Shown: piece after piece, positions 8,859 through 62,370 of the stretch
How the letters are laid out: each line of letters begins with the position of its first letter
Position numbering within the stretch: the first letter of the stretch is position 1
Source of the DNA: Micromonospora halotolerans
GTDB taxonomy: Bacteria > Actinomycetota > Actinomycetes > Mycobacteriales > Micromonosporaceae
DNA: 64,000 nucleotides
Assembly (NCBI RefSeq): GCF_032108445.1
Contig: NZ_CP134876.1
Coordinates: 4,030,001 to 4,094,000, forward strand
Direction: 5' to 3'
The notes under the pieces: model-generated
Told to the model about the DNA's origin: nothing
Database searches by the model: none
What the model saw: only the letters and a program-made list of their open reading frames with translations
Position numbers and translations under genes: made by a program

Positions 8859-8870
8859 CCGCGACCGGGT

Positions 8871-9422
8871 TCAGCCGTCCGCGGCCGCGTCCACGGCGGC
8901 CAGCAGCTCCGCCAGGTCGTACCCGCCGTCGTACCGCACCTCGTTGACGAAGAGCGTCGGGGTCCCGTCGACCCCGCTGCGGATGCCGCCCACGAAGTCC
9001 TGCCGGACCCGGTCGGCGTGGGCGTGGCGTCCCACCTCCGCGCCGACCTCGTCGGGCGGCAGCCCGAGCTGCTCCACCCCGAGCGACAGGTGCACCGGGT
9101 CGAGCTGGTCCTGATGCTCGTAGAGCCAGTCGTGCATCTCCCAGAACCGGCCCCGCCGGCCGGCCGCCTCGGCCGTCTCGGCGGCGCTCTCGGCGTACGG
9201 GTGGACGTTGGCGATGGGGAAGTGCCGGTAGACCAGCCGGACGGTGTCGGCGCGCTGGCGCAGCACCTCGGCCAGGTTGGTGTGGGCGGCCCCGCAGAAC
9301 CGGCACTGGAAGTCGCCGTACTCGACGAGGGTGACCGGCGCGTCGGCCGGCCCGCGGGTGTGGTCCGTCCCGGTCACCGGTAGCCGCAGCCGGGCGGTGG
9401 TGACCTGCAGTGGCGTGGTCAT
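8871..9422 (-). CDS. DsbA/FrnE-like thioredoxin-fold oxidoreductase
   Basis: 183 aa. The thioredoxin fold starts at APVTLVEYGDFQ and has the active-site CRFC (about residues 36-39). A helical insertion and the cis-Pro loop GVDGTPTLFVNEVRY (about 149-163) follow, in the layout of DSBA/Na+-antiporter-NhaA-linked thioredoxins. No signal peptide is visible, so a cytoplasmic disulphide or redox role is more likely than envelope oxidation. ATG at 9422. It converges with the LuxR gene; the BON-domain gene lies upstream on the same strand. Confidence 0.88.
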   Translation of the reverse strand: MTTPLQVTTARLRLPVTGTDHTRGPADAPVTLVEYGDFQCRFCGAAHTNLAEVLRQRADTVRLVYRHFPIANVHPYAESAAETAEAAGRRGRFWEMHDWLYEHQDQLDPVHLSLGVEQLGLPPDEVGAEVGRHAHADRVRQDFVGGIRSGVDGTPTLFVNEVRYDGGYDLAELLAAVDAAADG

Positions 9423-20284: not shown

Positions 20285-21226
20285 TTATCCGGGCGTTCCC
20301 ACCCGCTGCCCGGCCGTTCCCGCGTCCGTCCCCGAGAGCACCTGGTGCAGCACCCCGGCGACGGCCGCGGTCACCTCGTCGGGGCGTTCCATCATCAGCA
20401 TGTGGCCGGCGCCCGGGCAGACGGTCAGCTCGGTGGTCGGCAGCGCCGCGGCGATCGACTCGGCGCACGGCGGCGGGGTGAGCCGGTCCCGGTCGCCGAC
20501 CAGCGCGGCGGCCGGCAGCCGGCCGAGCGCCGCGAGGGTGTCCAGCCGGTGCTGGGCCCCGATCGAGGCGCGGAACCCGCCGATCGAGCGCAGCGAGGCG
20601 TGCGCCACCGCCGAGGTGACCAGCCGGATGTCGGCGGGGTCGCAGCGGTCGCCGAAGAGCATCCAGCGGATGCTGGGGCGCAGCGCGCGCAGCAGCGCGT
20701 GCGGCGGGCGCCAGGCGCCGCACCGGGCCAGCACCCCGGCGCCGGTGGTCTCGGCCAGCCGGATCAGCCGGGCGATGCGGGGGGAGAGCCCGTAGGCGGT
20801 GTGGGTGTGCCCCTCGGCGGTGGTCGAGACGAAGACCAGGCCGGCGACGCGGGCGGCGAAGCGGTCGGGGTGGCGGTGGGCGAACTCCATCACGGTCATC
20901 CCGCCCATCGAGTGCCCGATGAGCACGATCGGGCCGGACGGGACGAGCTGGTCGACCACCGCGGCCAGGTCGTCGCCGAGCTGGGCCAGGGTGGCGGTGC
21001 GCAGCGCCATGCAGCTCGACCGGCCGTGCCCCCGGGCGTCGTAGGTGAGCACCCGGATCCGGTCGCCCCACCGGTCGCGCAGGCCGGCGAGCTGGCGGTG
21101 CCAGCTGCGACCGTCCAGCGTCCAGCCGTGCAGCAGGACGGCGGTGACCTCGGCGTCGACCGGCCCGGTCGCCGTCACGTGCAGGCGTACGCCGTCGGGA
21201 AGTCGCACCTCCAGGTGCTCCGGCAT
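20285..21226 (-). CDS. Alpha/beta hydrolase
   Basis: 313 aa, alpha/beta-hydrolase fold. It has the oxyanion-hole HGWTLDGRSW (about 32-42), nucleophile elbow GHSMGGM (Ser ~104), acid in GDRDRLTPP and catalytic His in GAGHMLMMERPDEV (about 276). ATG at 21226 has GGGGAGGTGG 4 nt upstream. Substrate is not evident; similar enzymes are esterases, lipases or lactonases. The gene lies upstream of helD on the same strand with a 109-bp gap and is divergent from the carbonic anhydrase gene. Confidence 0.88.
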   Translation of the reverse strand: MPEHLEVRLPDGVRLHVTATGPVDAEVTAVLLHGWTLDGRSWHRQLAGLRDRWGDRIRVLTYDARGHGRSSCMALRTATLAQLGDDLAAVVDQLVPSGPIVLIGHSMGGMTVMEFAHRHPDRFAARVAGLVFVSTTAEGHTHTAYGLSPRIARLIRLAETTGAGVLARCGAWRPPHALLRALRPSIRWMLFGDRCDPADIRLVTSAVAHASLRSIGGFRASIGAQHRLDTLAALGRLPAAALVGDRDRLTPPPCAESIAAALPTTELTVCPGAGHMLMMERPDEVTAAVAGVLHQVLSGTDAGTAGQRVGTPG

Positions 21227-50379: not shown

Positions 50380-53034
50380 ATGCTGTCCGACGTGACCACC
50401 CCGCAAGATCTCGACGACCGGTTCCGGGCGGCGCTGACCGCGCTCGGTGCCCCCGCCCAGCGGCGTGACCTGGGTGAACCGCTGCCCGGCGGCGGGTCGC
50501 TGACCGGGGCGCAGGCGCTGGCCCTGTTCGACGCCCAGCTGACCAGCCGGCTGCTCGACCTGGCCGGGCGCTGGCTGCGCAGCTTCGGCGAGGGGTACTA
50601 CACGATCGGCTCCGCCGGCCACGAGGGCAACGCGGCCGTGGCCGCCGCGCTGCGGCCGACCGACCCCGCCCTGCTCCACTACCGCTCCGGGGCCTTCTAC
50701 TGCCTGCGTGCCGCCCAGGCGGCGGGCCGCTTCCCCGTCGGCGCGGAGGTGCCGGACGCCGACGTGCCGGAGCCGACCGGGGCGGCGGCGCGGATCCCCG
50801 ACCCGCGCACCCCCGGCGACGGCGACGCGGACGCGGATTCCGGCGCGCCGGACGGGCCGCCGGAGGCGGCCGCACCGGACGCCCCGGTGACGCCCGGCGA
50901 GTCCGCGCGGGCCGGCGCCACGAGCCCGTACGGCGGGGCCGAAGCGGCTGGTGACGGGGCGGGCCCGTCCGGTGGCTCGCCGGCGGCCGACGACGGGGCG
51001 GCGAGCCTGCCCACCGGGGCGGGGGTGGCCGTCGACACGGACGGCGCCGCGATCGCCGGCGTACCGGAAGTGCCCCTGCCCGAGCCCGACGACGCCTACG
51101 CGGAGGCGGCCCGCGACGTGCTGCGCGGGATGGTCGCCTCCGCCGCCGAACCGATCGCCGGGGGCCGGCACAAGGTCTTCGGCCGGGCCGACCTCGCGGT
51201 CATCCCGACCACCTCCACCATCGCCTCGCACCTGCCCCGGGCCGTCGGCCTGGGCCTGGCCCTGGAACGGCTGCGCCGGGGCGGCCGGCGGGCCGACGGG
51301 GAACCCGACGCCGTGACCTGGCCGCCGGACGCCATCGTGGTCTGCTCGTTCGGCGACGCCTCGGTCAACCACGCCACCGCGACGGCGGCGTTCAACACCG
51401 CCGGCTGGTACGACCACACCGGGCTGCGCATCCCGGTCCTGTTCGTCTGCGAGGACAACGGGCTCGGCATCAGCGTGCGCTCACCGCAGGGCTGGGTGGC
51501 CGCGACCCTGCGGGCCAGGCCGGGGACCCGCTACTTCTCGGCGGACGGCACCGACGTGGCCGAGGCGTACCGGGTGGCGGGGGAGGCGGCGGCCTGGGTG
51601 CGCCGGCACCGGCGGCCGGCCGTGCTGCACCTGACCACCGTGCGGCTCATGGGGCACGCCGGGGCGGACGCCGAGACCGCGTACCGGAGCCCGGCCGAGA
51701 TCGCGGCGGACCTGGCGCGGGACCCGCTGCTGGCCACCGCCCGGCGGCTGGTCGAGGCCGGCTGCGCCTCCGGCGAGGAACTGCTGGCCCGGTACGACGA
51801 GCGCGGCTGGCAGATCCGCCGGCTCGCCGAGGAGGTGCTGGACGAGCCGAAGCTGACCTCCCCGGTCGACGTGGTGGCCGAGCTGGCCCCGCGCCGGCCC
51901 GTCCGCATCTCCCGGGCGGTCGCCGACGCGGCGACCCGGGCGGCCGGCCCGGACGCCGGTGCCCGGGCCGAGGCGTTCGGCGGCAAGCTGCCGGAGCTGG
52001 CCGGGCCGCTCACCCTGGCGCAGAGCATCAACGCGGCCCTGGCCGACGGGATGCTCGACCACCCCGGGGTGGCCGTCTTCGGCGAGGACGTGGCCGCCAA
52101 GGGCGGGGTGTACGGGGTGACCAAGGGGCTGCGGGACCGGTTCGGGGCGGCGCGGGTGTTCGACACCCTGCTCGACGAGACCTCGATCCTCGGGCTCGCG
52201 CTGGGTGCGGGGGTGGCCGGGATGCTGCCGGTGCCGGAGATCCAGTACCTGGCGTACCTGCACAACGCCGAGGACCAGCTCCGGGGCGAGGCGGCGACCA
52301 TGCGGTTCTTCTCCCGGGGGGCGTTCCGCAACCCCATGGTGGTGCGCGTGGCCGGCCTGGCGTACCAGGAGGGGTTCGGCGGGCACTTCCACAACGACAA
52401 CTCGGTGGCCGTGCTCCGCGACGTGCCGGGGCTGGTCGTCGCGGTGCCGGCCCGCCCGGACGACGCCGCGCCGATGCTGCGTACCTGCCTGGCCGCCGCC
52501 GCGGTGGACGGCGCCGTCAGCGTCTTCCTGGAGCCGATCGCGCTTTACCACACCCGCGACCTCTACACCGAGGGCGACGGTGAGTGGCTGGCGGAGTACG
52601 CCGAGCCCGGCGCCTGGGCGGCCCGCCACGTGCCGATCGGCCGCGCCCGGGTGTACGGGGTCGGCTCGGCCGAGGACCTCACCATCATCACCTTCGGTAA
52701 CGGGGTCCGGATGTCGCTGCGGGCGGCGGCCACCCTGGCCGACGAGGGGGTCGGCAGCCGGGTGGTGGACCTGCGCTGGCTGGCGCCGCTGCCGGTGGCG
52801 GACATCATCCGGGAGGCCGCGGCCACCGGCCGGGTGCTGGTCGTGGACGAGACCCGCCGCTCGGGCGGGGTGGGCGAGGGCGTGATCGCCGCGCTGGTGG
52901 ACGGCGGGTACGTCGGCACGGCGCGCCGAGTGGCCGGACTTGACTCGTTTGTACCATTAGGTCCGGCGGCTCGTCAGGTCCTGGTCTCCGAGGATGCCAT
53001 TACCGAGGGTGCCCGCACGCTGCTGGCACGGTAA
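50380..53034 (+). CDS. Fused E1 alpha-beta 2-oxoacid dehydrogenase with a ~120-residue disordered insert
   Basis: 884-aa TPP enzyme in which the alpha (to ~530) and beta (~535-884) subunits of a branched-chain 2-oxoacid dehydrogenase E1 are joined. Alpha: [20 protein letters not shown], substrate loop [19 protein letters not shown], and TPP motif [20 protein letters not shown]. Beta: [38 protein letters not shown] and [11 protein letters not shown]. Between [17 protein letters not shown] and [12 protein letters not shown], where normal E1 alpha has ~10-20 residues, sits a Pro/Ala/Gly/Asp-rich stretch (about residues 115-235). Start ATG 50380 or GTG 50392. No E2 is adjacent. Substrate could be branched-chain oxoacids. 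Confidence 0.88.
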
Positions 53035-53145
53035 ATTCCGTTCCACCCGGTGCGCCACTTGCGCGGGGAGCCACAACTGTGTGGACTTGGCGCGACGGCG
53101 TCGGACGACGCCACGAGCAGGGACGAGATGAGGAGGCACGCGACA

Positions 53146-53583
53146 GTGAGCGCGACCGCTGGTCAGGCCGCCGACGGGGTACGCAGCCTGGCGGACCGGT
53201 TCGGGATCGAGCCGGGGATGGTCGTCATGGAGATGGGGTACGACGACGACGTCGACCAGGATCTCCGGGACGCCCTGACCGACCGCTGTGGAGATCTGGT
53301 CGACGAGGACACCGACGAGGTGGTCGACTCGGTTCTCGTCTGGTACCGCGACGGCGACGGCGACCTCTTCGAGCTCCTCGTCGACGCCCTCGGACCGCTG
53401 GCCGACAACGGTGTGGTCTGGCTCCTGACGCCCAAGGCCGGCCGGGACGGCCACGTCGAGCCGAGCGAGGTCGCGGAGAGCGCGCAGACCGCCGGCCTCC
53501 AGCAGACCTCCACGGTCAACGCGGGCCGCGACTGGAGCGGCGCCCGCCTCGTGCTCCGGCGTGGGTCGAAGAGCAAGAAGTAG
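53146..53583 (+). CDS. DUF3052 family protein
   Basis: 145 aa, conserved actinobacterial protein of unknown function. Segments: RSLADRFGIEPGMVVMEMGY, DDDVDQDLRDALTDRCGDLV, VLVWYRDGDGDLFELLVDAL and the C-terminal VNAGRDWSGARLVLRRG. Very acidic, soluble. GTG 53146 is fixed by AGGAGG 9 nt upstream. It precedes the AhpE gene, as it does in many actinomycetes, which suggests a shared context but not a known function. Confidence 0.93.
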   Translation: MSATAGQAADGVRSLADRFGIEPGMVVMEMGYDDDVDQDLRDALTDRCGDLVDEDTDEVVDSVLVWYRDGDGDLFELLVDALGPLADNGVVWLLTPKAGRDGHVEPSEVAESAQTAGLQQTSTVNAGRDWSGARLVLRRGSKSKK

Positions 53584-53661
53584 GCCGGGCTCGGCACCCG
53601 GCGGCCGGTGTCGCCGGGTGTGGCAGGCTGATCATCTCCAGACCCGATCCAAGGAGTTCCC

Positions 53662-54129
53662 ATGCCCATCGAGGTTGGCGCCGAGGCGCCGGACTTCGTG
53701 CTCAAGGACCAGAACAACCAGGAGGTCCGGCTCGCCGATTTCCGCGGCCGGCGCACCGTCCTGCTGGTCTTCTACCCGCTCGCCTTCACCGGCATCTGCC
53801 AGGGCGAGCTGTGCGAGGTGCGGGACAACCTCAACGAGTACGTCAACGACGACGTCCAGGTGCTGACGGTCAGCGTCGACTCCGTCTACGCCCACAAGAT
53901 CTGGGCCGACCGGGAGGGCTACCAGTTCCCGCTGCTGGCCGACTTCTGGCCGCACGGCGCGGTCGCCCAGGCGTACGGCGTCTTCAACGACGTCGCGGGC
54001 ATCGCCAACCGGGGCACCTTCGTCATCGACAAGGCCGGCGTGGTCCGGTTCGCCGAGATGAACATGCCGGGCGAGGCGCGGGACCAGCAGGGCTGGCGCA
54101 AGGCCCTCGCCGAGGCCGTCGCCGCCTGA
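53662..54129 (+). CDS. ahpE: Peroxiredoxin AhpE
   Basis: 155 aa, AhpE-class peroxiredoxin reducing hydroperoxides. The peroxidatic Cys46 lies in FYPLAFTGICQGEL. Later FPLLADFWPHGAVAQAYGVF and GIANRGTFVIDKAG match Mycobacterium tuberculosis AhpE closely. A second Cys (Cys51) follows, where the mycobacterial protein has Asp as I recall, so a resolving role within the same helix is possible. ATG 53662 has AAGGAG 6 nt upstream. Confidence 0.94.
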   Translation: MPIEVGAEAPDFVLKDQNNQEVRLADFRGRRTVLLVFYPLAFTGICQGELCEVRDNLNEYVNDDVQVLTVSVDSVYAHKIWADREGYQFPLLADFWPHGAVAQAYGVFNDVAGIANRGTFVIDKAGVVRFAEMNMPGEARDQQGWRKALAEAVAA

Positions 54130-54209
54130 TCCCACCCCGGGCCCGTCGTTCGACCGGGCCGGAGGCCGGCAGGTAAGCTTGCCGCTCCGGCCCGCCGTAC
54201 GGGCGTTCC

Positions 54210-54284
54210 GGGCGCGTAGCTCAGTGGGAGAGCACTCGCCTTACAAGCGAGGGGTCGCAGGTTCGAAACCTGCCGCGCCCACCA
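54210..54284 (+). tRNA. tRNA-Val (anticodon TAC), with encoded CCA
   Basis: Full cloverleaf: acceptor GGGCGCG/CGCGCCC, D-arm GCTC-AGTGGGA-GAGC, anticodon arm CTCGC-CTTACAA-GCGAG with TAC, short variable loop GGGTC, T-arm GCAGG-TTCGAAA-CCTGC, discriminator A then CCA. It reads GUA (and other GUN) valine codons. Its 3' half and downstream bases are the attachment site of the adjacent integrated island and are duplicated at 60384. Confidence 0.97.
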
Positions 54285-54293
54285 CCATTCACC
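54240..54293 (+). repeat. attL: 54-bp direct repeat spanning the 3' half of tRNA-Val
   Basis: From the anticodon loop to 9 bp beyond the CCA end, 54 bp are identical to 60384-60437; similarity continues a further ~12 bp with two mismatches. This is the core left by site-specific integration into a tRNA 3' end, keeping the tRNA intact at the left boundary. Confidence 0.92.
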
Positions 54294-54382
54294 AGCGGAA
54301 ACCGCGTCCGGTCGGGCAGCGGAAGAACGCTGTCTGAGTCCTCGGTCTTGGTGTCTTGCAGACGGAGCTTCCCGCCGGCCCG

Positions 54383-54880
54383 CTACACGGTCTGACTGAT
54401 GGCGGCGGTGCCGTTGTTTAAGTCCAGGTCAGACCAGCGCAGCCCAAGGAGTTCGCCTCGCCGGAGTCCCAGCGTTGCCGCAACGACGTAGAGCGGGTAG
54501 AGACGGTGTCCCTCGGCTGCGGCGAGGAGCCTGCGGACCTGGTCAACGGACAGGCCCTTACCGATCCGGTAGCGGGGGGAGGGGACGCGCACCAGCTTGG
54601 CGACGTTGCGGGACACCAGCTCCTCACGCATGGCGTGCTGGAGCGCGTTGCGCAGCACTGCGTGCACGAACTGGATCTGCCGAGTGCTCGGGTAGCGCTC
54701 ACAGCAGCGGCCGACGGAGCAGCACTGCCGATCGGATCGACGGTTCTTGTCGAGGCCAGCCGTGCAGCAGAGGCACTTGCGACGGAACTCGTCCATGAAC
54801 GCCTTGACATGTTGGACCTGGAGGCCGTCGAGGCGCTTCGTGCCGAGGGCCGGGACCAGGTGCAGTCGGACCGCGCTGTT
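54383..54880 (-). pseudogene. Tyrosine integrase remnant (pSAM2/AICE type)
   Basis: The readable part begins VRLHLVPALGTKRLDGLQVQ (core-binding domain) and has the Cys-rich insert CLCCTAGLDKN...CCSVGRCC, known from integrases of actinobacterial integrated plasmids. It then has RNALQHAMREELVSRNVAKL and the first catalytic block LGLRRGELLGLRWSDLDL with the first catalytic Arg. It stops at 54383, so the later R-H-R-Y residues are missing. The N-terminal arm domain is also absent upstream of ~54880. It cannot be active. Its position, ~90 bp from attL, marks it as the island's own integrase. Confidence 0.88.
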
Positions 54881-54962
54881 CTTCCTACCCCCGGTGTTGT
54901 TCCAACTGGCACGACTCGTCATACCGCACCCCCACGGCCAGGCCATAGCAACCGTTGACCGT

Positions 54963-55205
54963 GTGCTGGCCGTCGTGACCATCGCCGTGGTGCCGGTCGT
55001 CGCGACCATCGTCGTCCGGTTGCTCGCGCCCAGTTACTTCACGCTGCCCGGCCACCGCCTCCAACTCACCGTGGTGGCGATCGTCGCCGCCGTGGCGCTG
55101 CTGGGCTTTCTCACCGGCCGCTTCAACGACCACTTCCTCACGTGCGAAGACTTCATCGTGGCCGGCGAAGATCCTGCCCCGAACGGCACGCACACGAAGC
55201 CGTAA
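54963..55205 (+). CDS. Small two-helix membrane protein
   Basis: 80 aa if GTG 54963 is used; the frame is open further upstream but overlaps the integrase remnant antisense. TM1 about 1-22 (VLAVVTIAVVPVVATIVVRL), TM2 about 35-52 (TVVAIVAAVALLGFLTG), then a hydrophilic tail with CEDFIVAGEDPAPNGTH. Small membrane proteins of this kind (Spd-like) accompany transfer regions of actinobacterial plasmids, but no specific family is recognised. No good ribosome-binding site supports the start. Confidence 0.45.
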   Translation: MLAVVTIAVVPVVATIVVRLLAPSYFTLPGHRLQLTVVAIVAAVALLGFLTGRFNDHFLTCEDFIVAGEDPAPNGTHTKP

Positions 55206-55266
55206 GCCGGCTCGCCGTCCCGTCAGTCACTGGGCCAAGAAGCCGCGCCCGCCGTGAGCCTCGTGT

Positions 55267-55731
55267 TCAGGGAGTCGGCATTTCGTGTTCCGGGATCTGC
55301 ACTTCTCCAGCGATCGCCTTCTCGGCCAGCTCTACCCGCTCTGGGTGAAGTTCGCCGTCCAGCGGGTGCCTGGGCACGTTGATGCAGCTCTGACCGGGCA
55401 CGGATTTGCAAATTGGGCATGGGACGAACAGCCCGCCGCCGGGGATCTGGACACCGCGGAGGACGACCGCCCTGCCGATCTTGCGCAGCGCCTTGAACAG
55501 GTTGTCGTCCCTGTACCGCGTGGCAGCAGCGGCCACGTCCCGCATCCCTTCCCAGAACTCCGCGATGGCCTTTTCCCGGTGTATGTCGACGGAACCCACG
55601 CCCCCGGCTCCCCACCCTCGGATCAGCCAAACCTCGTCCGCCCCTTCCAGGTACGGCCCGACCGGAGTCGGACGGCCGGCTGCCGGCGTGTCTAGTCCCA
55701 GCACATGCTTGACGAATCCGTCCCAGGACAT
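55267..55731 (-). CDS. Zinc-ribbon protein whose 5' end comes from a module repeat
   Basis: 154 aa as read from ATG 55731. The first ~20 codons are translated from the tandem repeat and core of the neighbouring module (SWDGFVKHVLGL and then DTPAAGRP); native sequence appears to begin near TPVGPYLEGADEVWLIRGW. The C-terminus has CPICKSVPGQSC plus a downstream HPERVELAEKA, the 'CxxC-xGxxC...HxxR' ribbon common in actinophage and plasmid proteins. The gene was thus cut by the module at 55688 and may have acquired a new start. Function unknown. Confidence 0.55.
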   Translation of the reverse strand: MSWDGFVKHVLGLDTPAAGRPTPVGPYLEGADEVWLIRGWGAGGVGSVDIHREKAIAEFWEGMRDVAAAATRYRDDNLFKALRKIGRAVVLRGVQIPGGGLFVPCPICKSVPGQSCINVPRHPLDGELHPERVELAEKAIAGEVQIPEHEMPTP

Positions 55732-55738
55732 GCTTGAC
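55673..55738. repeat. Module junction 1: core plus left end repeats (type A)
   Basis: Core GGCCGGCTGCCGGC (55674-55687), then two copies of the type A motif at 55695-55713 (GTCCCAGCACATGCTTGAC) and 55720-55738, exactly 25 bp apart. This is the left end of module 1. Confidence 0.85.
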
Positions 55739-56272
55739 GGTTGGCCTAGGACGAGGACAGCAACCAGATCCCGTCCTCCTCCGTGGTGACCCCGCAGAGT
55801 GCGTGCGTTTCGGTCCCGATAGTTACGAACTCGGGCTCGCCCGGATAGATGATCAAGTGCTGAGCCATCCGGGGATCGTCTTGCAGGCGGACGAGTGCCC
55901 ACGGCAGCGCGAACGCTCCGGGACCGGCGACGCTGACGAGGAACGTTCGGTCTGCGCTGATGACGCCAACTGACTGCGCCAGGTGCAGCCAGGCCTGGTT
56001 CACCTCGTCCAGGTATCCGTCCCGGCTGTCATCGATCACGACGTCTGGTTGCGCCCCGGCGCGAGCCACCGTCTGCCAGGCGCGTTTGGGATCCAGCCAG
56101 CCGGGATCGGTACCGATGACGGAGAGGCCAGCGGCAACCAGGAGCTCATCCCGGCTCCTCAGGTTTAAGCGATCCACGCCACGCTCCTGGTCCGCTCCGG
56201 CGGTCACGGTTATCGGATCATGGCAACCATCTGGTGGGATGCCACCGTCAAGCATGTGCCGTGACAGGACAC
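55688..56272. mobile_element. Module 1 (585 bp, type A ends, one gene)
   Basis: Left end GTGTC with the two 25-bp-spaced motifs described for junction 1. The right end carries the same pair inverted: outer copy 56247-56265 (GTCAAGCATGTGCCGTGAC), inner copy about 56222-56240. The element ends in GACAC directly before the next core. It carries a single gene on the minus strand and no transposase. Confidence 0.75.
55746..56177 (-). CDS. Module 1 gene, hypothetical protein
   Basis: 143 aa from GTG 56177, chosen because CAGGAG stands 7 nt upstream; the longer frame to 56255 is translated repeat sequence. Soluble, acidic, alpha/beta: SRDELLVAAGLSVIGTDPGW, QPDVVIDDSRDGYLDEVNQA, SADRTFLVSVAGPGAFALPW, VTIGTETHALCGVTTEEDG. 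Size and composition resemble small immunity-type proteins, but I recognise no family. It is the only gene of the module. Confidence 0.65.
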   Translation of the reverse strand: MDRLNLRSRDELLVAAGLSVIGTDPGWLDPKRAWQTVARAGAQPDVVIDDSRDGYLDEVNQAWLHLAQSVGVISADRTFLVSVAGPGAFALPWALVRLQDDPRMAQHLIIYPGEPEFVTIGTETHALCGVTTEEDGIWLLSSS

Positions 56273-56338
56273 GGCCGGCTGCCGGCGGTGTCGGGTCTCA
56301 GGACCTGCGTGACAGATCAGTCTCAGGACGTGGGTGAC
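56222..56338. repeat. Module junction 2: inverted type A end, core, type B end
   Basis: Inverted type A motifs (56222-56265), core GGCCGGCTGCCGGCG (56273-56287), then type B motifs GTCTCAGGACCTGCGTGAC (56295-56313) and its second copy (56320-56338), 25 bp apart. One core is shared by two modules with different end sequences. Confidence 0.85.
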
Positions 56339-57025
56339 ACGTCTGGCTAGAGGATCTTGTATTGCCTCGCGGTAGCCCCAAAGTCGCATGGTTGCTGCTC
56401 CTGCGCCTGAGAACGTCCGAGGGCCGACAACGTCCCGGATGGCAACCTGTATGCGTGGATGCGTTTGCGGATCGAGTCGACGGCGCTTGGGAGTGGCTCT
56501 CCGCCGCCATTGAAGAAGCGCAGGAGGGGCGCTGGGTCCGCGATGCAGTGGAACGGCAGGTGATGAAGGACATCAGGGCCGCCACCAACGCGCTGCATGG
56601 TGGGCGGCTGGCCCCGTTTACCGAGGACCTGTGGCACGTGCGTATCGGGCGGATCGCCAACTGGGCGGGGGTGATCCGGTTGGCTGCCCGAGCTGGTGGA
56701 TGGGAACTCCAACCCGTCGTCGGGCAGAGCCCGCCGCAGCCTGCGGGCATGGCCGAGCTACTCTCCGGCATCTACGCGATCGGCGAGCAGGGCGAGGTAT
56801 GGATGAAGCAGCTCCTCAGAGGGGGCGGGCCGCCACCGGAGGACGCGATCGCCAAGGCCGAGGGCTTCCTGACCGGGCCAGGCTCGATCGAGGATCTTGA
56901 ACAGCTCTTCTACGACTGAAACCATCGGGTACGGCGGTTCCGTCACGCTCATCTCCACCAATGCTCGGCGGAGTGTCACGCAGGTCCTGATACCGCCGTG
57001 TCACGCAGGTCCCGAGACCGGACAG
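56288..57025. mobile_element. Module 2 (738 bp, type B ends, one gene)
   Basis: Left motifs at 56295 and 56320; right motifs inverted at 56975-56993 and 57000-57018 (GTCACGCAGGTCCCGAGAC), again 25 bp apart. One gene on the plus strand; no transposase. Confidence 0.75.
56362..56919 (+). CDS. Module 2 gene, hypothetical protein
   Basis: 185 aa from TTG 56362 with AGAGG about 8 nt upstream; the true start may be later. Mostly helical: AFADRVDGAWEWLSAAIEEA, RDAVERQVMKDIRAATNALH, IGRIANWAGVIRLAARAGGW, and an acidic C-terminus SIEDLEQLFYD. No signal or TM segment. No family recognised. It stops 55 bp before the right end motifs. Confidence 0.6.
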   Translation: MPRGSPKVAWLLLLRLRTSEGRQRPGWQPVCVDAFADRVDGAWEWLSAAIEEAQEGRWVRDAVERQVMKDIRAATNALHGGRLAPFTEDLWHVRIGRIANWAGVIRLAARAGGWELQPVVGQSPPQPAGMAELLSGIYAIGEQGEVWMKQLLRGGGPPPEDAIAKAEGFLTGPGSIEDLEQLFYD

Positions 57026-57091
57026 CCGGCTGCCGGCGGTGCCTGGTCTCGCATGATGGTTGACGGAACGGCGTCGCACGGTGCTTTACAT
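56975..57091. repeat. Module junction 3: inverted type B end, core, type C end
   Basis: Inverted type B motifs (56975-57018), core GCCGGCTGCCGGCG (57025-57038), then type C motif GTCTCGCATGATGGTTGAC (57046-57064) and a weaker second copy near 57073-57091 (27 bp apart). Confidence 0.8.
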
Positions 57092-58278
57092 GATCGCGAC
57101 TGTCGTTATCCAACGGATCCAGGCTGAAGCGGTCAAGCTAGGCCGCTACCCCGGCCCGCTTACGGCGGATCGTCGGACATTGGGTAGCGGGCGGCGAGGG
57201 CAAGGGCATCGTTCGAGCGCCCGGTCATCGCGTAGCCCACTATCAGCGTCCCTCGCAACCTGCGCAGGTCGTCGTGTTCGGCGCCGAGCAGTGCGCGGAC
57301 GTCGCCGATGATGCGCTCGCCTAGGGCGATGGACTGCGCTACGTCGTGGCCGCCCTCGGAGTATCGGGCGGCGAGCTGGACCTGGGCGTGGAGCGTGCGG
57401 GGATGGGTCGGGCCCAGCAGGCGCTGATGGTCGGCCGCGATCTGCTCGAGTAGGGACACCTCGTCGTCGGTGCGGCCTACCCACCGGTGGCAGTAGGCGT
57501 GGCGCTCGCGGGCGTAGACGGTGTCGGGATGCATCGGGCCGAGCTGCCGTTCCCGTTCGGCCGCAAGCCGTCCCCACGACGCGATGACCCTCTCCAGCAG
57601 GGTGACCCGGTCCTGCTTTCGTCCGACGTCTTCCCATGCAGCGGCGAGCCGGATCCGGGCGAACTGCGTGTCGGGTTCGTCAGGGCCGAGCCACTGCTCT
57701 CGCTCGGCCACGATTTGCTCCCAGCCGAGGGCAATCCGCTGCCGCAACGCAGGGATCTCGTCGCGCTGTCGCCCCCGGTCGTAGAGGAAGGTGAGGCTCG
57801 CCCAAGAAGCCAGGGTGTCTGGATGAGCTGTCCCGAGGACTCGGGCTCGGCCCTCTGCGACCCGCTTCATGGCGCCGATCGCATCGGGCAGCGGTGCGTC
57901 GCCATTGCCGATGCCGACGTGGAAGTAGGTCAACGCGAGCTCGTGCCGCGCGGACAGTGTGTCCGGGTGGTCGGGACCGAGCACATGGTCCCGGACGACC
58001 ACAACCTCCTCCAACTCAATCAGGGCATCCTCGTCGCGCTCGTCTTCCCGATACCCGAGAGCAAGGCGTACCCGTGCCTCGAGCGTCTGCGGATGCTCCG
58101 CGCCGAACTCCCGCAGGGTGGCGGCAACGGCGGCCTCAAGACCGATGACTCGTCCCGAACTCATGCACACACCACCTGTCGATCGTTCATCCGCCAAGCG
58201 TCACGCGCGGCGCGACTCCGGCGATCATGCCAAGCGACAACCCGAGGTCGCGGTGTCAACCATCAACCGGCGCAGGAC
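57039..58278. mobile_element. Module 3 (1240 bp, type C ends, TPR gene)
   Basis: The left end is described at junction 3. The right end has an inverted motif GTCAACCATCAACCGGCGC (58255-58273) and a degenerate inner copy around 58224-58244. One gene on the minus strand. Confidence 0.7.
57160..58164 (-). CDS. Module 3 gene, TPR (kinesin-light-chain-like) protein
   Basis: 334 aa from ATG 58164 (TTG 58197 is an alternative). About six TPR_10/12-type repeats with the recurring LGPDHPDTL-like unit: FGAEHPQTLEARVRLALGY, LGPDHPDTLSARHELALTY, LGTAHPDTLASWASLTFLY, LGPDEPDTQFARIRLA, LGPMHPDTVYARERHA, LGPTHPRTLHAQVQLAARYS. These form a superhelix for protein binding. In actinomycetes such arrays are found in signalling and conflict-system proteins. 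There is no attached enzyme domain here. Confidence 0.85.
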   Translation of the reverse strand: MSSGRVIGLEAAVAATLREFGAEHPQTLEARVRLALGYREDERDEDALIELEEVVVVRDHVLGPDHPDTLSARHELALTYFHVGIGNGDAPLPDAIGAMKRVAEGRARVLGTAHPDTLASWASLTFLYDRGRQRDEIPALRQRIALGWEQIVAEREQWLGPDEPDTQFARIRLAAAWEDVGRKQDRVTLLERVIASWGRLAAERERQLGPMHPDTVYARERHAYCHRWVGRTDDEVSLLEQIAADHQRLLGPTHPRTLHAQVQLAARYSEGGHDVAQSIALGERIIGDVRALLGAEHDDLRRLRGTLIVGYAMTGRSNDALALAARYPMSDDPP

Positions 58279-58343
58279 GGCCGGCTGCCGGCGTGTCTTG
58301 TCCCACCACATGCTTGGCAGATCCGTCCCACCAGATGCTTGAC
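58255..58343. repeat. Module junction 4: inverted type C end, core, type A end
   Basis: Inverted type C motif, core GGCCGGCTGCCGGC (58279-58292), then type A motifs at 58300-58318 and 58325-58343, 25 bp apart (GTCCCACCAGATGCTTGAC in the second). Confidence 0.85.
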
Positions 58344-58855
58344 GATCGGCCTAGAGAAGTGGCGAAGGACCGCCACACCTGAAGCGGTGGTCAGTCGGCC
58401 TGCTCGGGAGGGAAGTCGTCGGCGAAGGCAGCGTCGACAGCTGCCGCTGGCATGCAGTCGTGTTCGTGGGCCCAGGTGCCTGCATCGTGCAGCACGGGAT
58501 CGGGTCCGTCATCGGTGGCGAAGGTGAAGTCGACGCGTTCAGGCAGGGTGCGCAGCCCGCACTGTCCCTCGATCGGCTTGAGCCGTTCCCACCGGCAGTC
58601 CGCGGCGGCCAGGGCGTCGGCCACCTGAGCGAAGGTCAGTTGTGCGGGCAGGGCGATGACCTCGTCAGACTGTGCTTGGCTCGGCAGCTCGACCGTCCCT
58701 CGCCAGGTCTGAACCGTCACCGAGGTGATGATCCGGCAGCGGCATACGACGAACTCGACGTCACCGTAGGAGTACAGGTGCGGCCACCTGTGGCGCTTGT
58801 CGATCCGCTCGACTAACTGGGTGACGCTGGCCGTGACCGGCGACGGAACTTCCAT
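58293..58855. mobile_element. Module 4 (type A left end; no right end found)
   Basis: The left end is described at junction 4. One minus-strand gene follows. No inverted motif pair or core is seen between the gene and the island end, so the module is truncated or its right end was lost. The end given is the gene end, not a proven boundary. Confidence 0.5.
58391..58855 (-). CDS. Module 4 gene, hypothetical protein
   Basis: 154 aa from ATG 58855. Soluble: PSPVTASVTQLVERIDKRHR, LYSYGDVEFVVCRCRIITSV, LPAQLTFAQVADALAAADCR, RTLPERVDFTFATDDGPDPV, acidic C-terminus DDFPPEQAD. Several Cys (five), no clear metal motif. I recognise no family; size and acidity resemble immunity-type proteins. Confidence 0.65.
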   Translation of the reverse strand: MEVPSPVTASVTQLVERIDKRHRWPHLYSYGDVEFVVCRCRIITSVTVQTWRGTVELPSQAQSDEVIALPAQLTFAQVADALAAADCRWERLKPIEGQCGLRTLPERVDFTFATDDGPDPVLHDAGTWAHEHDCMPAAAVDAAFADDFPPEQAD

Positions 58856-59173
58856 GGATGGTCTTGGAGGATTGCAGCAGCTAGCTGCTTACAACGATCC
58901 TGTTCAGCGAGGCGTGTTCGTTGCCTGGGGGTCAAGGAGTCGGTCGCCTTCGTGCCCACTGCGTGCCCGGTAGGCCGGTTAACAAGGGGCAGCAAGGGGA
59001 ACTTTCGCGCCGCCTTCCTTGCCTGGCCAGTCGAGACCAGCCTGACCACCAGCACGGAAGCAAGGGCCTACCTCGAAATCAAGGCACCTTCCAAACTGGC
59101 GGTGGGGCTCGGCGGCAGACAGATAGCAGCGACCGAGCCGTGTTCGGGGCCCTCAGGCGGCGAGAATCGGCGG
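58856..59173. other. No supported gene (318 bp)
   Basis: Holds short open frames on both strands with mixed third-position bases. It includes a run of AAGGGGCAGCAAGGGGAA (58985-59002) and may be debris of island genes. No repeat motif of the module family is present. Confidence 0.5.
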
Positions 59174-59431
59174 ATGGATGATCTCCTCAGATTCCTTCAT
59201 GCCCGTTATGAGGCGGACTGCCATGCCTACGCGGAGGTGGCCCACCGCTTCGGGGGCGCAGCTCTCCCCGACAGCCAACTGCCGATGCTCGACCTGGTCG
59301 ACATGCTGGCACGGGAGTACGAGGCGATGGACCGGACTGACGAGCGCGTCACTGGTCTCACGTACGCGCTACGGGTGCTTGCACAGTCGTACGACGAGCA
59401 CCCCGACTACCGCGACGAGTGGCGTCCCTAG
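59174..59431 (+). CDS. DUF6221-like small protein
   Basis: 85 aa from ATG 59174. N-terminus MDDLLRFLHARYEADCHAY and C-terminus LRVLAQSYDEHPDYRDEWRP match the two ends of the DUF6221 family, which is frequent on integrated plasmids and phages of actinomycetes; the middle is shorter than usual. Function unknown. It supports the AICE origin of the island. No strong ribosome-binding site is seen. Confidence 0.7.
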   Translation: MDDLLRFLHARYEADCHAYAEVAHRFGGAALPDSQLPMLDLVDMLAREYEAMDRTDERVTGLTYALRVLAQSYDEHPDYRDEWRP

Positions 59432-59805
59432 CTGCTCAGCAAGCAGGCAGCCATGGGCGACTATCTGAGTGACGACGGCTACGAGCCGGGGAGAACGTCT
59501 ACGGACGCCGACGACGGTTGCCGCAGCTAGGCCCTCCTGGTAGTACAGGTCACCGAGTTCTGTTGGTTGCCGGGGGGGCCAATGAGTCTGCCGGGGCACA
59601 AACGGGGCACAAGACACTGTGAAACGTCGGCAACCAGCCATCAACGACGCGAGCCCAGGAGTAAGCGTGACCAGGGCGCTGACCAGGTCACCCCAGGTCA
59701 CGGAAGTGGCAGCCCAAGTTCCGCTTCAACTCACCTGCGTCGAACCGTCGCCGGGTGTTTGTGCCGTGCCCGGTTCGTCAGGTGGGAGCAGTTAGCTTCT
59801 AAGTT
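59432..59805. other. No supported gene (374 bp)
   Basis: Short frames only. A G-run (59570-59577) and repeated GGGGCACAA (59588 and 59599 area) stand out. It probably contains the promoter of the gene at 59806. Confidence 0.45.
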
Positions 59806-60234
59806 GTGAAGACGACGCGTTGGCTGCGGGCGTTGCTGGATAGGGGTACTACGAAGCGTCCCGAGGAGTCCTCTGACGTCGAACCCTTCGCACCGGAGTG
59901 CATGTCGCTGCTTGAGTTGGCCCGGCTGCTCGCTGGTCGGAGGTACAGCGAGAGAGTTGCCAGTGCGTATGTCGAGGTGGTGACCTTCGCATCGGCTGAC
60001 GAGATCGTGGCGATGCTGGAGGTGATGCTGGAGGAGGACTGGATAGGTCTTCCGGTCTGGGCGCGAAACCTCGCATTCCGGCTGGCCTGCCTCCAACGGC
60101 CGGAGGATGTCGAGCTGTTGCGTGTGGCGGCCAACGACCTACATGCCTTCGGTCCCGACTGGGACACCATAGCTGCGGAACTTCACCGTCGAGCAGACCG
60201 GTTGGAGGCCAGCCAGGAAGAGAGCCTTCCCTGA
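59806..60234 (+). CDS. Hypothetical helical protein near attR
   Basis: 142 aa from GTG 59806. Predicted all-helical: CMSLLELARLLAGRRYSERV, SADEIVAMLEVMLEEDWIGL, ARNLAFRLACLQRPEDVELL, and LRVAANDLHAFGPDWDTIAA. Acidic overall, no membrane segment. Third positions are less G/C-biased than in chromosomal genes. Unknown family; possibly an immunity or regulatory protein of the island. Confidence 0.65.
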   Translation: MKTTRWLRALLDRGTTKRPEESSDVEPFAPECMSLLELARLLAGRRYSERVASAYVEVVTFASADEIVAMLEVMLEEDWIGLPVWARNLAFRLACLQRPEDVELLRVAANDLHAFGPDWDTIAAELHRRADRLEASQEESLP

Positions 60235-60383
60235 CACCTCTGCTCCTGAGCAGTTGTCCTGGTGCTGTCGACAGCAACGGCGACAGCAACGGGGACAGAC
60301 GGGGATGGGTGCGGCTGGACGGCCGCGGATTGCCGCCCGAGCTCAGAGACAGACGCGGACCGGCCCGGACGGAGCGCCCAGAA

Positions 60384-60437
60384 CTTACAAGCGAGGGGTC
60401 GCAGGTTCGAAACCTGCCGCGCCCACCACCATTCACC
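60384..60437 (+). repeat. attR: second copy of the 54-bp tRNA-Val repeat
   Basis: Identical to 54240-54293. It starts in the anticodon loop, so it lacks the 5' half and is not a functional tRNA. It marks the right boundary of the island; chromosomal-style codon usage resumes at once with the 71-aa gene. Confidence 0.92.
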
Positions 60438-60524
60438 GGTGGAAACCGCCCCGAGAAGATCACTCCCCGGGGCGGTGACATCAGCAGACGCCTGCCGTTG
60501 AGCTCTGTCGGCCGCAACCGGTGG

Positions 60525-60740
60525 CTAGTGAGCCCGCCGGCGGTTGGACTCCTGCTGGATCGCCTCCGTGAGATCCCGCCAGGTGCCAGCCGAGGTCTTC
60601 ATCATCCGGTCGACCATCGAGCGGGCGGCGGGTTCGTCCGGGAAGTCGTACGAGACTTCCCGACCTCCGTCACCGCCGAGCCGGCCCCGTACTCGCCACA
60701 GCCGGCCGTCGGAGAGCAGCCAGGTGTCGCGCCGGGCCAT
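60525..60740 (-). CDS. Small conserved-looking hypothetical protein
   Basis: 71 aa from ATG 60740. MARRDTWLLSDGRLWRVRGR, DGGREVSYDFPDEPAARSMV, TSAGTWRDLTEAIQQES: a compact single domain with two Trp and a strong helical C-terminus. Third positions are mostly G/C, as in the chromosome. It stands just outside attR, so it was probably next to tRNA-Val before integration. Confidence 0.65.
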   Translation of the reverse strand: MARRDTWLLSDGRLWRVRGRLGGDGGREVSYDFPDEPAARSMVDRMMKTSAGTWRDLTEAIQQESNRRRAH

Positions 60741-60804
60741 GCGGCCCGTTCCACCAGCGTCCCCGTACCTTCACCGGCAACAATCTAATCGAACATGCGT
60801 ACGA

Positions 60805-60871
60805 GCCGGCCGGCTGCCGCTTGTCTAGTCCCACCACATGCATTACGAATCCGTCCCACCACAGGGTTGAC
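60805..60871. repeat. Module junction 5: core plus left end repeats (type A), outside the island
   Basis: Core GGCCGGCTGCCGC (one base short, 60808-60820), then type A motifs at 60828-60846 and 60853-60871, again 25 bp apart. Confidence 0.8.
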
Positions 60872-61765
60872 AGTGGACCTAGGAGATGCCGTCAGCTTCA
60901 GGCGTGGGGGGCTGGGTTGGCGGGTTTGTCCCTCAGCACGTCTAGCAGGCGGCGGTATTCGGCCTCGGCTCCGATCGCTGCCCGGTGTTCGGGATGTGCG
61001 AGGTAGTACCAGATCGCGTCGCTGATGAACCAGGCGTCGACGGTCTTGATCGGTAGCCGTCGCGGGCGCAGCACGAGGCCGCGACGACGTACCAGGTCGG
61101 GTCGGGCGTAGGTGAGGGTCAGAGTGTCGGCGTACAGGGCCGGCCGTTGCGGGTAGCCGGGGGCCAATGCCTCCCATGGCACCCGCACTGACCCGGCCAG
61201 TGTGCGCCACCACAGGCCCTCAGGCCGCAGGTGAACAAGGAACCCGCACCAGGCTAAGACCATCTGCCTACCTGCCAGCGCGGAGACCAGGACCGGCAGG
61301 ACGGCGTCGAGGGGCCGCAGGTTGTGTGCCCAGATCGGTCGGACCCCAGAGCTGATCTGCGCGGAGGCTGCCAACGCCAGAACAACGGCGCCCCAAACGG
61401 CAATGAAGCTGGGCGGCGTGTTGAAGGACGAGACCTCCGGCCGTACGACGAAGACTGCAGGCCGCTCATCCGGCAAGGCATAACCCAACAGCGCCAACAG
61501 GATCAAAAAGCCAACTAGGAGCCCGAAAACCAACACGTCAACGATCTTGTGGCCCGAGCCAGCGAACCACGGCACTAGGGGATAGCCGACAGAGACGGCC
61601 AGAGCGATGGCGAGGACGGTCCGGCGCTGCCGGACCACAGCTGCTTGGAATGCAGACACGCCCCACAGTACGGGTGCCGGACCACCGACTCTTCCAACAA
61701 ACTGGGCCGATCATGTCAAGCATTTGGTGGAACGCGAATGTCATGCATGTCCCGTGACGGGGCAC
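60821..61765. mobile_element. Module 5 (945 bp, type A ends, membrane protein gene)
   Basis: The left end is described at junction 5. The right end has inverted motifs at 61715-61733 (GTCAAGCATTTGGTGGAAC) and 61740-61758 (GTCATGCATGTCCCGTGAC), 25 bp apart, followed by a core. It lies right of attR, so modules are not confined to the tRNA island. Confidence 0.75.
60898..61659 (-). CDS. Module 5 gene, membrane protein with PH-like C-terminus
   Basis: 253 aa from GTG 61659. Four hydrophobic helices: VLAIALAVSVGYPLVPWFAG, VDVLVFGLLVGFLILLALLG, FIAVWGAVVLALAASAQISS, and LDAVLPVLVSALAGRQMVLA. A soluble C-terminal part with LRPEGLWWRTLAGSVRVPWE and YADTLTLTY resembles bacterial PH-like membrane proteins. 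Function unknown; the only gene in its module. Confidence 0.7.
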   Translation of the reverse strand: MSAFQAAVVRQRRTVLAIALAVSVGYPLVPWFAGSGHKIVDVLVFGLLVGFLILLALLGYALPDERPAVFVVRPEVSSFNTPPSFIAVWGAVVLALAASAQISSGVRPIWAHNLRPLDAVLPVLVSALAGRQMVLAWCGFLVHLRPEGLWWRTLAGSVRVPWEALAPGYPQRPALYADTLTLTYARPDLVRRRGLVLRPRRLPIKTVDAWFISDAIWYYLAHPEHRAAIGAEAEYRRLLDVLRDKPANPAPHA

Positions 61766-61831
61766 GACCGGCTGCCGGCGATGCCTGGTCTCGCATGATG
61801 GTTGACGAAACGGCGTCGGAGGTTGCTTGAC
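61715..61831. repeat. Module junction 6: inverted type A end, core, type C end
   Basis: Inverted type A motifs (61715-61758), core ACCGGCTGCCGGCG (61767-61780), type C motif GTCTCGCATGATGGTTGAC (61788-61806, identical to the one at 57046) and second copy GTCGGAGGTTGCTTGAC (61815-61831, 27 bp apart). Confidence 0.8.
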
Positions 61832-62370
61832 GTCCGGTCGTGATCGAGTAGGTCTGGTGCTTCGGACCGATGGTAAGTCATGGGCAAGGTGCTATTCGCT
61901 CATGAGCAACCCGATCCGTCTGTCGTTGGTCGCTGTGGCATCGTGACGCTGTGAACCCCGGCGGCTGGCGGCATCTGCTGCTGAGCGACGACGCCTACGT
62001 GCTGAGGCCGCCGTCTTCCGTCGCTGCCGTCTCGCAGGTCGAGGCGCTACTGGGCGTCGATCTTCCGGCCGACCTGCGAGCTCTCTATCTCGCGACCGAT
62101 GGCGTGTTCGACAAGACCGGCCAATGGTTCGTGTGTTGGCCTCTGGATGAGGTGGTCAAGCGCAACCAGGACGCGTGGGCCCAGGAAGGGGCAGGCCGGC
62201 GGCAGTTGCTCGGCTTCGGTGACGATGGGACTGGCTCCCCGTTCTGCATTTCCACAAGCGGCAGCGGCCACGTGTTCATCTGGGATCCGATCGACGCCGT
62301 GGCTTATCCGCTCGCGACCAACCTCGCCGACTTCTGGCGCGGCTGGCATGCCGGCACGTTGAAGACCTGA
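61780..62370. mobile_element. Module 6 (type C left end; right end not found)
   Basis: The left end is described at junction 6. It carries the SUKH-like gene on the plus strand. No inverted type C end is seen after it; an Mrr-like gene fragment follows directly. The end given is the gene end. Confidence 0.45.
61951..62370 (+). CDS. SMI1/KNR4 (SUKH superfamily) protein
   Basis: 139 aa from GTG 61951. SUKH pattern: SVAAVSQVEALLGVDLPADL then RALYLATDGV (about 24-51), WPLDEVVKRNQDAW, and a C-terminal FCISTSGSGHVFIWDPID with NLADFWRGWHAG. SUKH proteins are common immunity proteins neutralising contact-dependent or type VII secreted nuclease toxins. A type VII-like locus lies 0.5 kb away on the other strand, which fits, but no cognate toxin domain is visible. 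Confidence 0.82.
   Translation: MNPGGWRHLLLSDDAYVLRPPSSVAAVSQVEALLGVDLPADLRALYLATDGVFDKTGQWFVCWPLDEVVKRNQDAWAQEGAGRRQLLGFGDDGTGSPFCISTSGSGHVFIWDPIDAVAYPLATNLADFWRGWHAGTLKT

Follow-up and report, generated by a model that had tools for sequence, protein, structure and literature searches.

How small genes come to be lined up one after another, with a single short sequence shared between neighbours, is the question raised by one locus of Micromonospora halotolerans, the genome of which is available as one contig of 6.96 Mb. The window analyzed here comprises 64,000 nucleotides of this contig (NZ_CP134876.1, positions 4,030,001 to 4,094,000; coordinates without a locus name refer to the window), and near its right-hand end six junctions (J1 to J6) separate successive modules, each junction being built around a core, GCCGGCTGCCGGC, and pairs of a 19-bp motif. 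In a first-pass annotation made from the sequence, two of the origins considered were repeated insertion of non-autonomous gene-carrying elements with IS481-like ends and an integron-like system operating at the core. The former is supported by the present analysis: the modules are very probably mobile insertion cassettes (MICs), i.e., IS481-type transposons without a transposase, which carry a passenger gene (usually one) between two short ends and were serially inserted at their target.

Within the window, the motif GTCYCANNACNTGNNTGAC, allowing up to two mismatches, has 13 matches, all of them within 55695-61758, against a chance level with a mean of 0.49 and a largest value of 3 over 100 shuffles of the window. 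Exact copies of the core are located at 55675, 56274, 57025 and 58280, and variants at 60809 and 61767; a fifth exact copy at 20511 is not accompanied by motifs. The right-hand motif pair that had been claimed for every junction is present at all six, with a spacing of 25 bp at J1, J2, J4 and J5 and of 27 bp in the variant junctions J3 and J6, where the motifs are weaker. The inverted left pair ascribed to the internal junctions is clear at J2, J3 and J6, degenerate at J4 (21.5 bits) and missing at J5. One gene per module likewise holds for most of the array, the interval between J4 and J5 containing three predicted open reading frames (ORFs) together with a duplicated 3' part of tRNA-Val.

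To follow the ends beyond the window, a strict core-plus-pair pattern (matched in 7 of 300 genomes of the family, the reversed form being absent from the matches listed) was judged too strict and was replaced by an end model, R1, built from 25 ends of the window, its own genome and six other genomes, these ends being found by construction. R1 has 24 matches in the genome of M. halotolerans itself, which disposes of the suspicion that the ends might occur only at this locus; at least one match was present in 88 of 111 genomes of the genus (E<=0.01), and matches were detected in 137 of 300 genomes drawn from the family (E<=1e-4), representing 21 of 44 genera. Each end consists of two 19-bp motifs, the second copy lying 25 bp inside, with tips of the form TGTC...GACA. 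When the array was compared with twelve loci by Blast, approximately 50-90 bp of the end were shared and the interiors were unrelated with few exceptions, namely flanking sequence and the cargo of the window element E2, which recurs at locus L035 (L and G numbers denote loci and genomes). Comparison of 45 elements with five autonomous ones allowed both ends to be typed in 41, of which 40 have two ends of the same type (16 A and 24 B, the latter including L115, both ends of which are closest to the left end); L169 alone has ends of mixed types, and the four untyped elements include E3 of the window and L034. Of an autonomous element, a stretch of mostly 45-70 bp is retained from either end. These comparisons show that the modules carry both ends of predicted autonomous IS481-type elements. 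The earlier worry that all modules might be internal deletions of a single insertion sequence (IS) was justified as regards derivation from IS481-type elements, and unfounded as regards the interior, which is foreign cargo.

The core, previously regarded as the recombining site, turned out to be flanking DNA outside the elements and is replaced by unrelated 15-bp repeats at other loci. Recognisable tips (TGTC...GACA, with TGCC/GGCA variants allowed) were found in 46 of 52 candidate elements. A score of at least 11 for a flanking direct repeat was reached by 35 of the 52 candidates compared with 1 of 3000 random position pairs; these repeats measure 14-16 bp and contain no more than one mismatch, except for E3, with 20 bp and two mismatches. 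The six candidates without tips or repeat were left out of the counts. Many of these repeats are GCCGGC-like and hence not independent; repeats unlike GCCGGC occur at L033, L102, L103, L105, L111 and L125, and at L105 three copies of GCTCAGCACGGAGGAG stand around and between two elements. In G045, a 2504-bp element is present in four copies that are 100% identical, three of which are flanked by perfect 15-bp repeats, all different. Junctions shared between neighbours were seen by eye at 20 loci besides the window, the exception being L096, where two neighbours abut without a target copy. Since the flanking repeats are far above the controls and their sequence differs at other sites, the analysis shows the core GCCGGCTGCCGGC to be target DNA, duplicated over about 15 bp on insertion, and neighbours in arrays to share one copy of this target. 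The four identical copies in G045 and a relocated copy of window element E5, described below, show apparent movement of the elements. A junction in the form of a miniature element of about 110 bp, with its TGTCA tips outward, was considered and rejected because the interiors, not the surroundings, travel with the ends; the TGTC tips beside the core border 15-bp repeats, which also rules it out.

Elements with the same ends and a transposase of their own were recognised at L094, L103 and L105, where approximately 2.5 kb with type B ends contain an open transposase frame of 611-615 aa followed by a small passenger ORF. The transposase frame is split at L125, and a type A relative, L101, has its transposase split between two frames. 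These loci show that candidate autonomous elements combining transposase and passenger exist in the genus. The two kinds of passenger scanned from them gave a WapI match and a GyrI-like match below the cut-off. The transposase (611 aa at L105; close full-length relatives, 603-616 aa) passes the NCBIfam IS481 model NF033577 (E=1.7e-88; 296.8 bits, cut-off 224) and contains the Pfam domains rve and LZ_Tnp_IS481. Among the best 120 of 7680 relatives, most are named IS481 family transposase or transposase InsO, and their hosts comprise Micromonospora, Actinoplanes, Dactylosporangium, Krasilnikovia, Actinomadura, Nonomuraea, Streptosporangium and others. At E<=1e-30, the transposase had matches in 36 of the 111 genomes of the genus, although these include fragments and proteins that are more distant. 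An AlphaFold2 model (mean predicted local distance difference test score, pLDDT, 74; predicted template modelling score, pTM, 0.36) contains helices at the N-terminus, followed in the description by a catalytic fold, and three all-beta units that resemble one another, at approximately 365-418, 453-505 and 533-585; because the pTM is low, only the secondary structure of this model was used. The best Foldseek matches of the modelled transposase in the PDB are IstA and TnsB complexes, and a sequence search of the PDB returned only two weak matches to retroviral-type integrases. The seventh position after the catalytic E, judged by eye, is Q in type B (L105) and R in type A (L101). An ordinary IS481 element at L036 (10257-11243, 328 aa) was rejected as the partner of the cassettes, a nearby end being present on one side only and no partner end being seen beyond the gene. 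A two-ORF transposase-like pair (102 and 287 aa), probably a second IS inserted there, accompanies a DUF4440 gene within the type A cassette at L102 (3859-5893).

Where these elements land is indicated by a conserved flank, CCGCCTTGANNNNGTA[CT]AGAAA, which represents the end of a dispersed repeat; the stretch upstream of many insertions reads ...GGGCCGCCTTGAAGACGTACAGAAACTTTGAAC. The pattern GCCGCCTTGANNNCGTACAGAAANT was found at 56 places in 26 of 41 genus genomes, the reversed pattern having no match. Among 30 loci fetched by the flank pattern alone, inspection by eye revealed an element end at 15 and an empty site at 15; the scripted occupancy count left the diverged end of L140 uncounted, and G207, G294 and G310 possess the site with no end-model match. 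Different single genes between the same ends, empty sites and a transposase bounded by those ends, which the first-pass annotation had proposed to look for, were thus all found. The element tip lies 27 bp beyond GTA[CT]AGAAA in 18 of 35 distinct occupied sites and 24-29 bp beyond it in 31; end-like patterns are present in 305 of 20,000 random 60-mers of the fetched loci. Eight occupied sites at which the tip lies at +27 to +29 have a neighbouring 15-bp stretch that does not resemble GCCGGC. At L033 and at a copy of E5 in G270, where the flank is of a diverged class, the tip is 41 and 42 bp from CCGCCTTGA, compared with 39-41 bp in five others. The flank at L033 is a dispersed repeat of approximately 320 bp (8692-9014) that folds strongly (z=-6.0) and ends two to three bases before the duplication. 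These distances show that insertion keeps a fixed spacing to the end of a dispersed repeat, whatever the neighbouring 15-bp sequence.

Additional features were observed at the landing sites. The repeat of approximately 320 bp at L033 is present in ten or more copies in G255, its right end being the cassette landing site. Rfam searches with two pieces of the target repeat yielded sub-threshold matches only, and at gathering thresholds the searches with six loci yielded nothing but tRNAs. A third type of end, which is diverged (TGTCCGACTCCGG... or TGTCGTACTCCG...), occurs at the same landing site at L136, L140, L146, L152, L155, L169 and L173, and a stretch resembling it lies to the left of J1 and J4 in the window. 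Short tandem duplications are found at the landing site of L089, L129, L137, L150 and L162, including GACTCCCGCTAGACTCCCGCTAG at L129, in a genome without end matches; such duplications could be footprints of lost elements.

A mechanism can be proposed on this basis. Cassettes would arise when an element combining transposase and passenger loses its transposase; L099, which keeps 318 bp of the transposase end and a truncated ORF of 148 aa starting like the transposase beside a UPF0167 gene, and the 97-bp transposase-start remnant in E2 fit a series from such elements to cassettes, the direction of which we infer. The paired motifs would be putative transposase-binding sites, and a transposase supplied in trans may move the cassettes. 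Each new cassette would enter the same 15-bp target, so that elements stack head to tail, and serial insertion at the target beside the flank would then account for head-to-tail arrays that share one core. The target might be chosen by the extra beta-rich repeats of the transposase or by a host protein bound at the end of the repeat.

Several observations weigh against this interpretation. A matching transposase was not found in the genome of M. halotolerans at E<=1e-30, and the elements of the window may for that reason now be immobile. Besides the six candidates without tips or repeat, 11 more scored under 11, E5 has no clean repeat in the window, and the fourth G045 copy has unmatched flanks. 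With respect to targeting, the 35 occupied sites were counted among 55 distinct sites over all fetched loci, a pool enriched for occupied sites, many loci having been fetched by their ends; the tip lies at +37 to +43 in 4 of the 35, and the other end faces the flank in 2 of 30 occupied sites (L073 and L094; by eye). Insertions at L087, L102, L115 and L124 follow another flank, AATAGGAGCGTC, some elements have no recognised flank, and the target flank was not found beside the window array. In addition, the difference in J1-J4 between the window and another genome of the same species (G270) is best read as an island difference rather than a cassette change.

Among the alternatives, the one that survives best, although it is unlikely, retains cassette insertion by IS481 transposition and attributes the arrays mainly to exchange between cores and end repeats, by homologous recombination or unequal crossing-over, in place of repeated insertion at one target. 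Neighbours do have long similar ends, L169 has ends of two types, and the flanks of the L096 neighbours lack a target copy. However, elements of types A and B with unrelated cargo stand side by side at the exact 15-bp spacing (E1/E2, L095, L089 and L105), and single elements keep the same exact spacing from the flank. Distinctly less probable is the absence of any real targeting, with an IS481 element that prefers GC-rich palindromes such as GCCGGCAGCCGGC and a conserved flank that hitch-hikes. This would agree with the many GCCGGC-like target copies, which also occur at loci without a recognised flank, but it sits poorly with the eight sites at +27 to +29 described above and with the four identical copies in G045, all of which follow the flank, one of them in the other orientation.

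Slightly weaker again is the notion that the flank repeat belongs to some larger composite mobile element carrying the cassettes and is not their target. The flank does occur in many copies, as a repeat that folds strongly and at L033 ends 2-3 bp from the duplication; yet half of the 30 flank-picked loci, including those in G207, G294 and G310, contain no element, and the flank lies outside the duplicated 15 bp. Least tenable of all is integron-like or other site-specific recombination, with one-gene cassettes linked at the GCCGGCTGCCGGC core through a recombinase of the tyrosine or serine type: the single core between neighbours, the common direction of the cores and the usual one gene per module would suit it, but the core represents duplicated target DNA, the sequence of which varies from site to site and is an unrelated one at other loci bounded by these ends, core-like sequence also occurs at sites without any element, and the enzyme identified between such ends belongs to the IS481-type DDE transposases.

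With serial insertion of mobile cassettes as the preferred explanation, the individual elements of the window can be described as follows. E1 (55689..56271, minus strand) has type A ends, matching those of the autonomous type A element L101 at 88% and 84%, with tips and a 16-bp flanking repeat, and carries a 169-aa ORF (55746-56255, minus strand) with no Pfam family. E2 (56289..57024, minus strand) has type B ends, matching type B elements at 91-92%, with tips and a perfect 15-bp repeat, GCCGGCTGCCGGCGG; its cargo, a 185-aa ORF (56362-56919, plus strand), has no Pfam family and a second copy in the same genome at L035. E2 also retains a 97-bp type B left end with the start codons of the transposase (MTLRRALVEMSV...; 56928..57024, minus strand), which matches L103 positions 97-1 at 91.8% and overlaps an ORF at 56758-56979; this short start stretch is the only transposase remnant inside the modules of the window. 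E3 (57040..58279, unstranded), the right end of which is degenerate, is flanked by a 20-bp repeat with 2 mismatches; its ends match neither type A nor type B elements and have no assigned type, and it carries a TPR protein (57160-58197, minus strand; TPR_12, E=1e-17). J4R (58294..58347, unstranded) is a lone right-type end (end model, 63.7 bits at 58280-58344) for which a partner end was not found and which is adjoined by an ORF at 58391-58855. Copies of the target site on the plus strand lie to the left of E1 (CGGCCGGCTGCCGGCG, 55673..55688), between E1 and E2 (56272..56288), between E2 and E3 (57025..57039), and between E3 and J4R (58280..58293). Farther to the right, E5 (60822..61764, minus strand) has type A ends, matching L101 at 92% and 89%, and carries a 253-aa ORF (60898-61659, minus strand) with no Pfam family above the cut-off. 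It is followed by J6R (61782..61836, unstranded; end model, 48.6 bits), another lone end for which no partner end was found, and then by an SMI1/SUKH gene (61951-62370, plus strand; SMI1_KNR4, E=1.7e-13). To the left of J5 lies a dispersed sequence (60484-60835) with a small gene at 60525-60740, in which a box, TCGAACATGCGTACGA, immediately precedes the core; this box, we presume, resembles the actinobacterial LexA box.

The same-species genome G270 places part of this array on an island. It is 98% identical to the window over 53001-54305 and then lacks a stretch of 6.1 kb, holding J1-J4, that lies between two copies of a tRNA-Val 3' part (54240..54305, plus strand, at the border, and 60384-60449; 66 bp at 97% identity). 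Within 54210-60449, the bracketed stretch is probably an integrated island holding J1-J4; an integrase-like fragment (54383-55009) lies inside it and outside the modules. The place matching this island in G116 (L156) gave no end-model match. Beyond the island, a J6-type end occurs in both genomes (86%), and beside it stands E5 in the window and a module with a 245-aa ORF in G270. G270 has its copy of E5 on another contig at another site, 96% identical over window positions 60853-61764 and measuring 921 bp from tip to tip compared with 943 bp in the window, with one motif fewer. This copy has GGTCGATTGAATGCCC on one side and GGTCGATTGAACGCCC on the other and lies next to a repeat end of the same kind, and its flanking repeats read GGTCGATTGAA[T/C]GCCC. 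Overall, the window array looks like an old stack of three elements and one lone end on the tRNA-Val island, with one element and one lone end beyond it.

Across all loci, the elements are 526-2035 bp long (median 818). ORFs were counted in 41 of the 45 elements (L160, L169, L171 and L172 were not given to the ORF caller), and 38 contain one, two contain more and one contains none. Relative to the end at which the transposase starts, cargo is directed with it in 23 cases and against it in 14. The 63 predicted proteins fall into 46 clusters; cargo of the LtrA type was encountered eight times, in elements or intervals from seven genomes, and a 147-aa cargo is common to G300 and G233 (94.6%). The Pfam cut-off was passed by 16 of 43 cargo proteins scanned, the other 27 having no match above it, and the families comprise LtrA (four proteins), GNAT (two), SMI1/SUKH, SUFU, Imm33-like, Imm32, WapI immunity, UPF0167, GrpB, DUF4440, glyoxalase and TPR. 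Four of the 16 belong to families named for immunity or SUKH, and SUFU proteins may have an immunity role as well; the cargo is possibly an immunity repertoire. A defence reading was set aside, as PADLOC gave only one weak match among 10 cargo proteins (the SUKH protein, E=0.0028).

The relationship to known systems is best considered feature by feature. The cassettes resemble the IS481 family in having a DDE transposase above the NCBIfam cut-off and TGT...ACA tips with inverted terminal repeats, and their duplications of 15-16 bp lie, give or take one, within the 2-15 bp given for that family in PMC10045372. They differ from it in the 611-aa transposase with approximately 300 extra C-terminal residues, the doubled motifs per end, the fixed landing site, the passenger genes and the many transposase-less derivatives. 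According to PMC10132070, IS1202 family transposases have 394-507 aa, with Q at the seventh position after the catalytic E (a position at which types A and B differ here), and elements of the ISAjo2 type use dif/pdif targets with 3-5-bp duplications; no target is reported there for long-duplication IS1202 relatives. With the ISAjo2 type as portrayed in that text, the present elements share TGT/ACA tips, a TnsB-like transposase and an insertion of set orientation and set distance relative to a particular site, and the second motif copy near each end may correspond to the additional binding site of that type, whereas duplications of approximately 15 bp, another target (the end of a dispersed repeat), a longer transposase (603-616 aa) and cargo cassettes set them apart. 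In the terms of PMC3129680, a MIC consists of IS ends around other genes without a transposase, and a transporter IS (tIS) of a transposase plus passenger; both forms are present here.

Unlike either form, the present elements form serial arrays of mixed types that share one targeted site, and the single genes that they carry are many and different in genomes from across a bacterial family. Integron cassette arrays and dif modules likewise consist of serial one-gene modules with a common short site, but the common site here is a target duplication made by a transposase, of approximately 15 bp and varying in sequence. No integrase was found among the predicted ORFs of the modules, and no Xer site is implicated as far as tested, no search for dif having been made. 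Similarity to Tn7 and Tn7-like elements is suggested by fixed-distance insertion whatever sequence is duplicated, by several motifs per end and by a modelled transposase nearest TnsB and IstA structures; unlike them, the elements of approximately 2.5 kb at L094, L103 and L105 contain only a transposase and one small passenger ORF, with no TnsA, TnsC or TnsD. A description of these cassettes or their target was not found in the titles and abstracts listed for open-licence papers. The MIC kind itself is known, and it is the target-locked variant of IS481 mobile insertion cassettes that is considered new.

These findings imply that gene arrays can arise without an integrase, since a DDE transposon inserting at a fixed landing distance leaves one shared site and thereby imitates a cassette array. 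Target choice by a single DDE transposase becomes directly testable, a point left open for long-duplication IS1202 relatives in PMC10132070. A broader proposal, advanced tentatively and rated somewhat below an even chance, is that a target-locked IS481 lineage, with a transposase bearing three extra beta-rich repeats, repeatedly gains single genes and sheds its transposase, and that cassettes of several lineages stack head to tail at the ends of a dispersed repeat as a transposase-run counterpart of the integron, which may provide Micromonosporaceae with an exchangeable accessory repertoire, partly of immunity type. If this is true, long-duplication IS of the IS481/IS1202 group would gain a defined target, PMC10132070 having found none for them. 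The cassettes also offer an origin for small orphan genes in Micromonosporaceae genomes.

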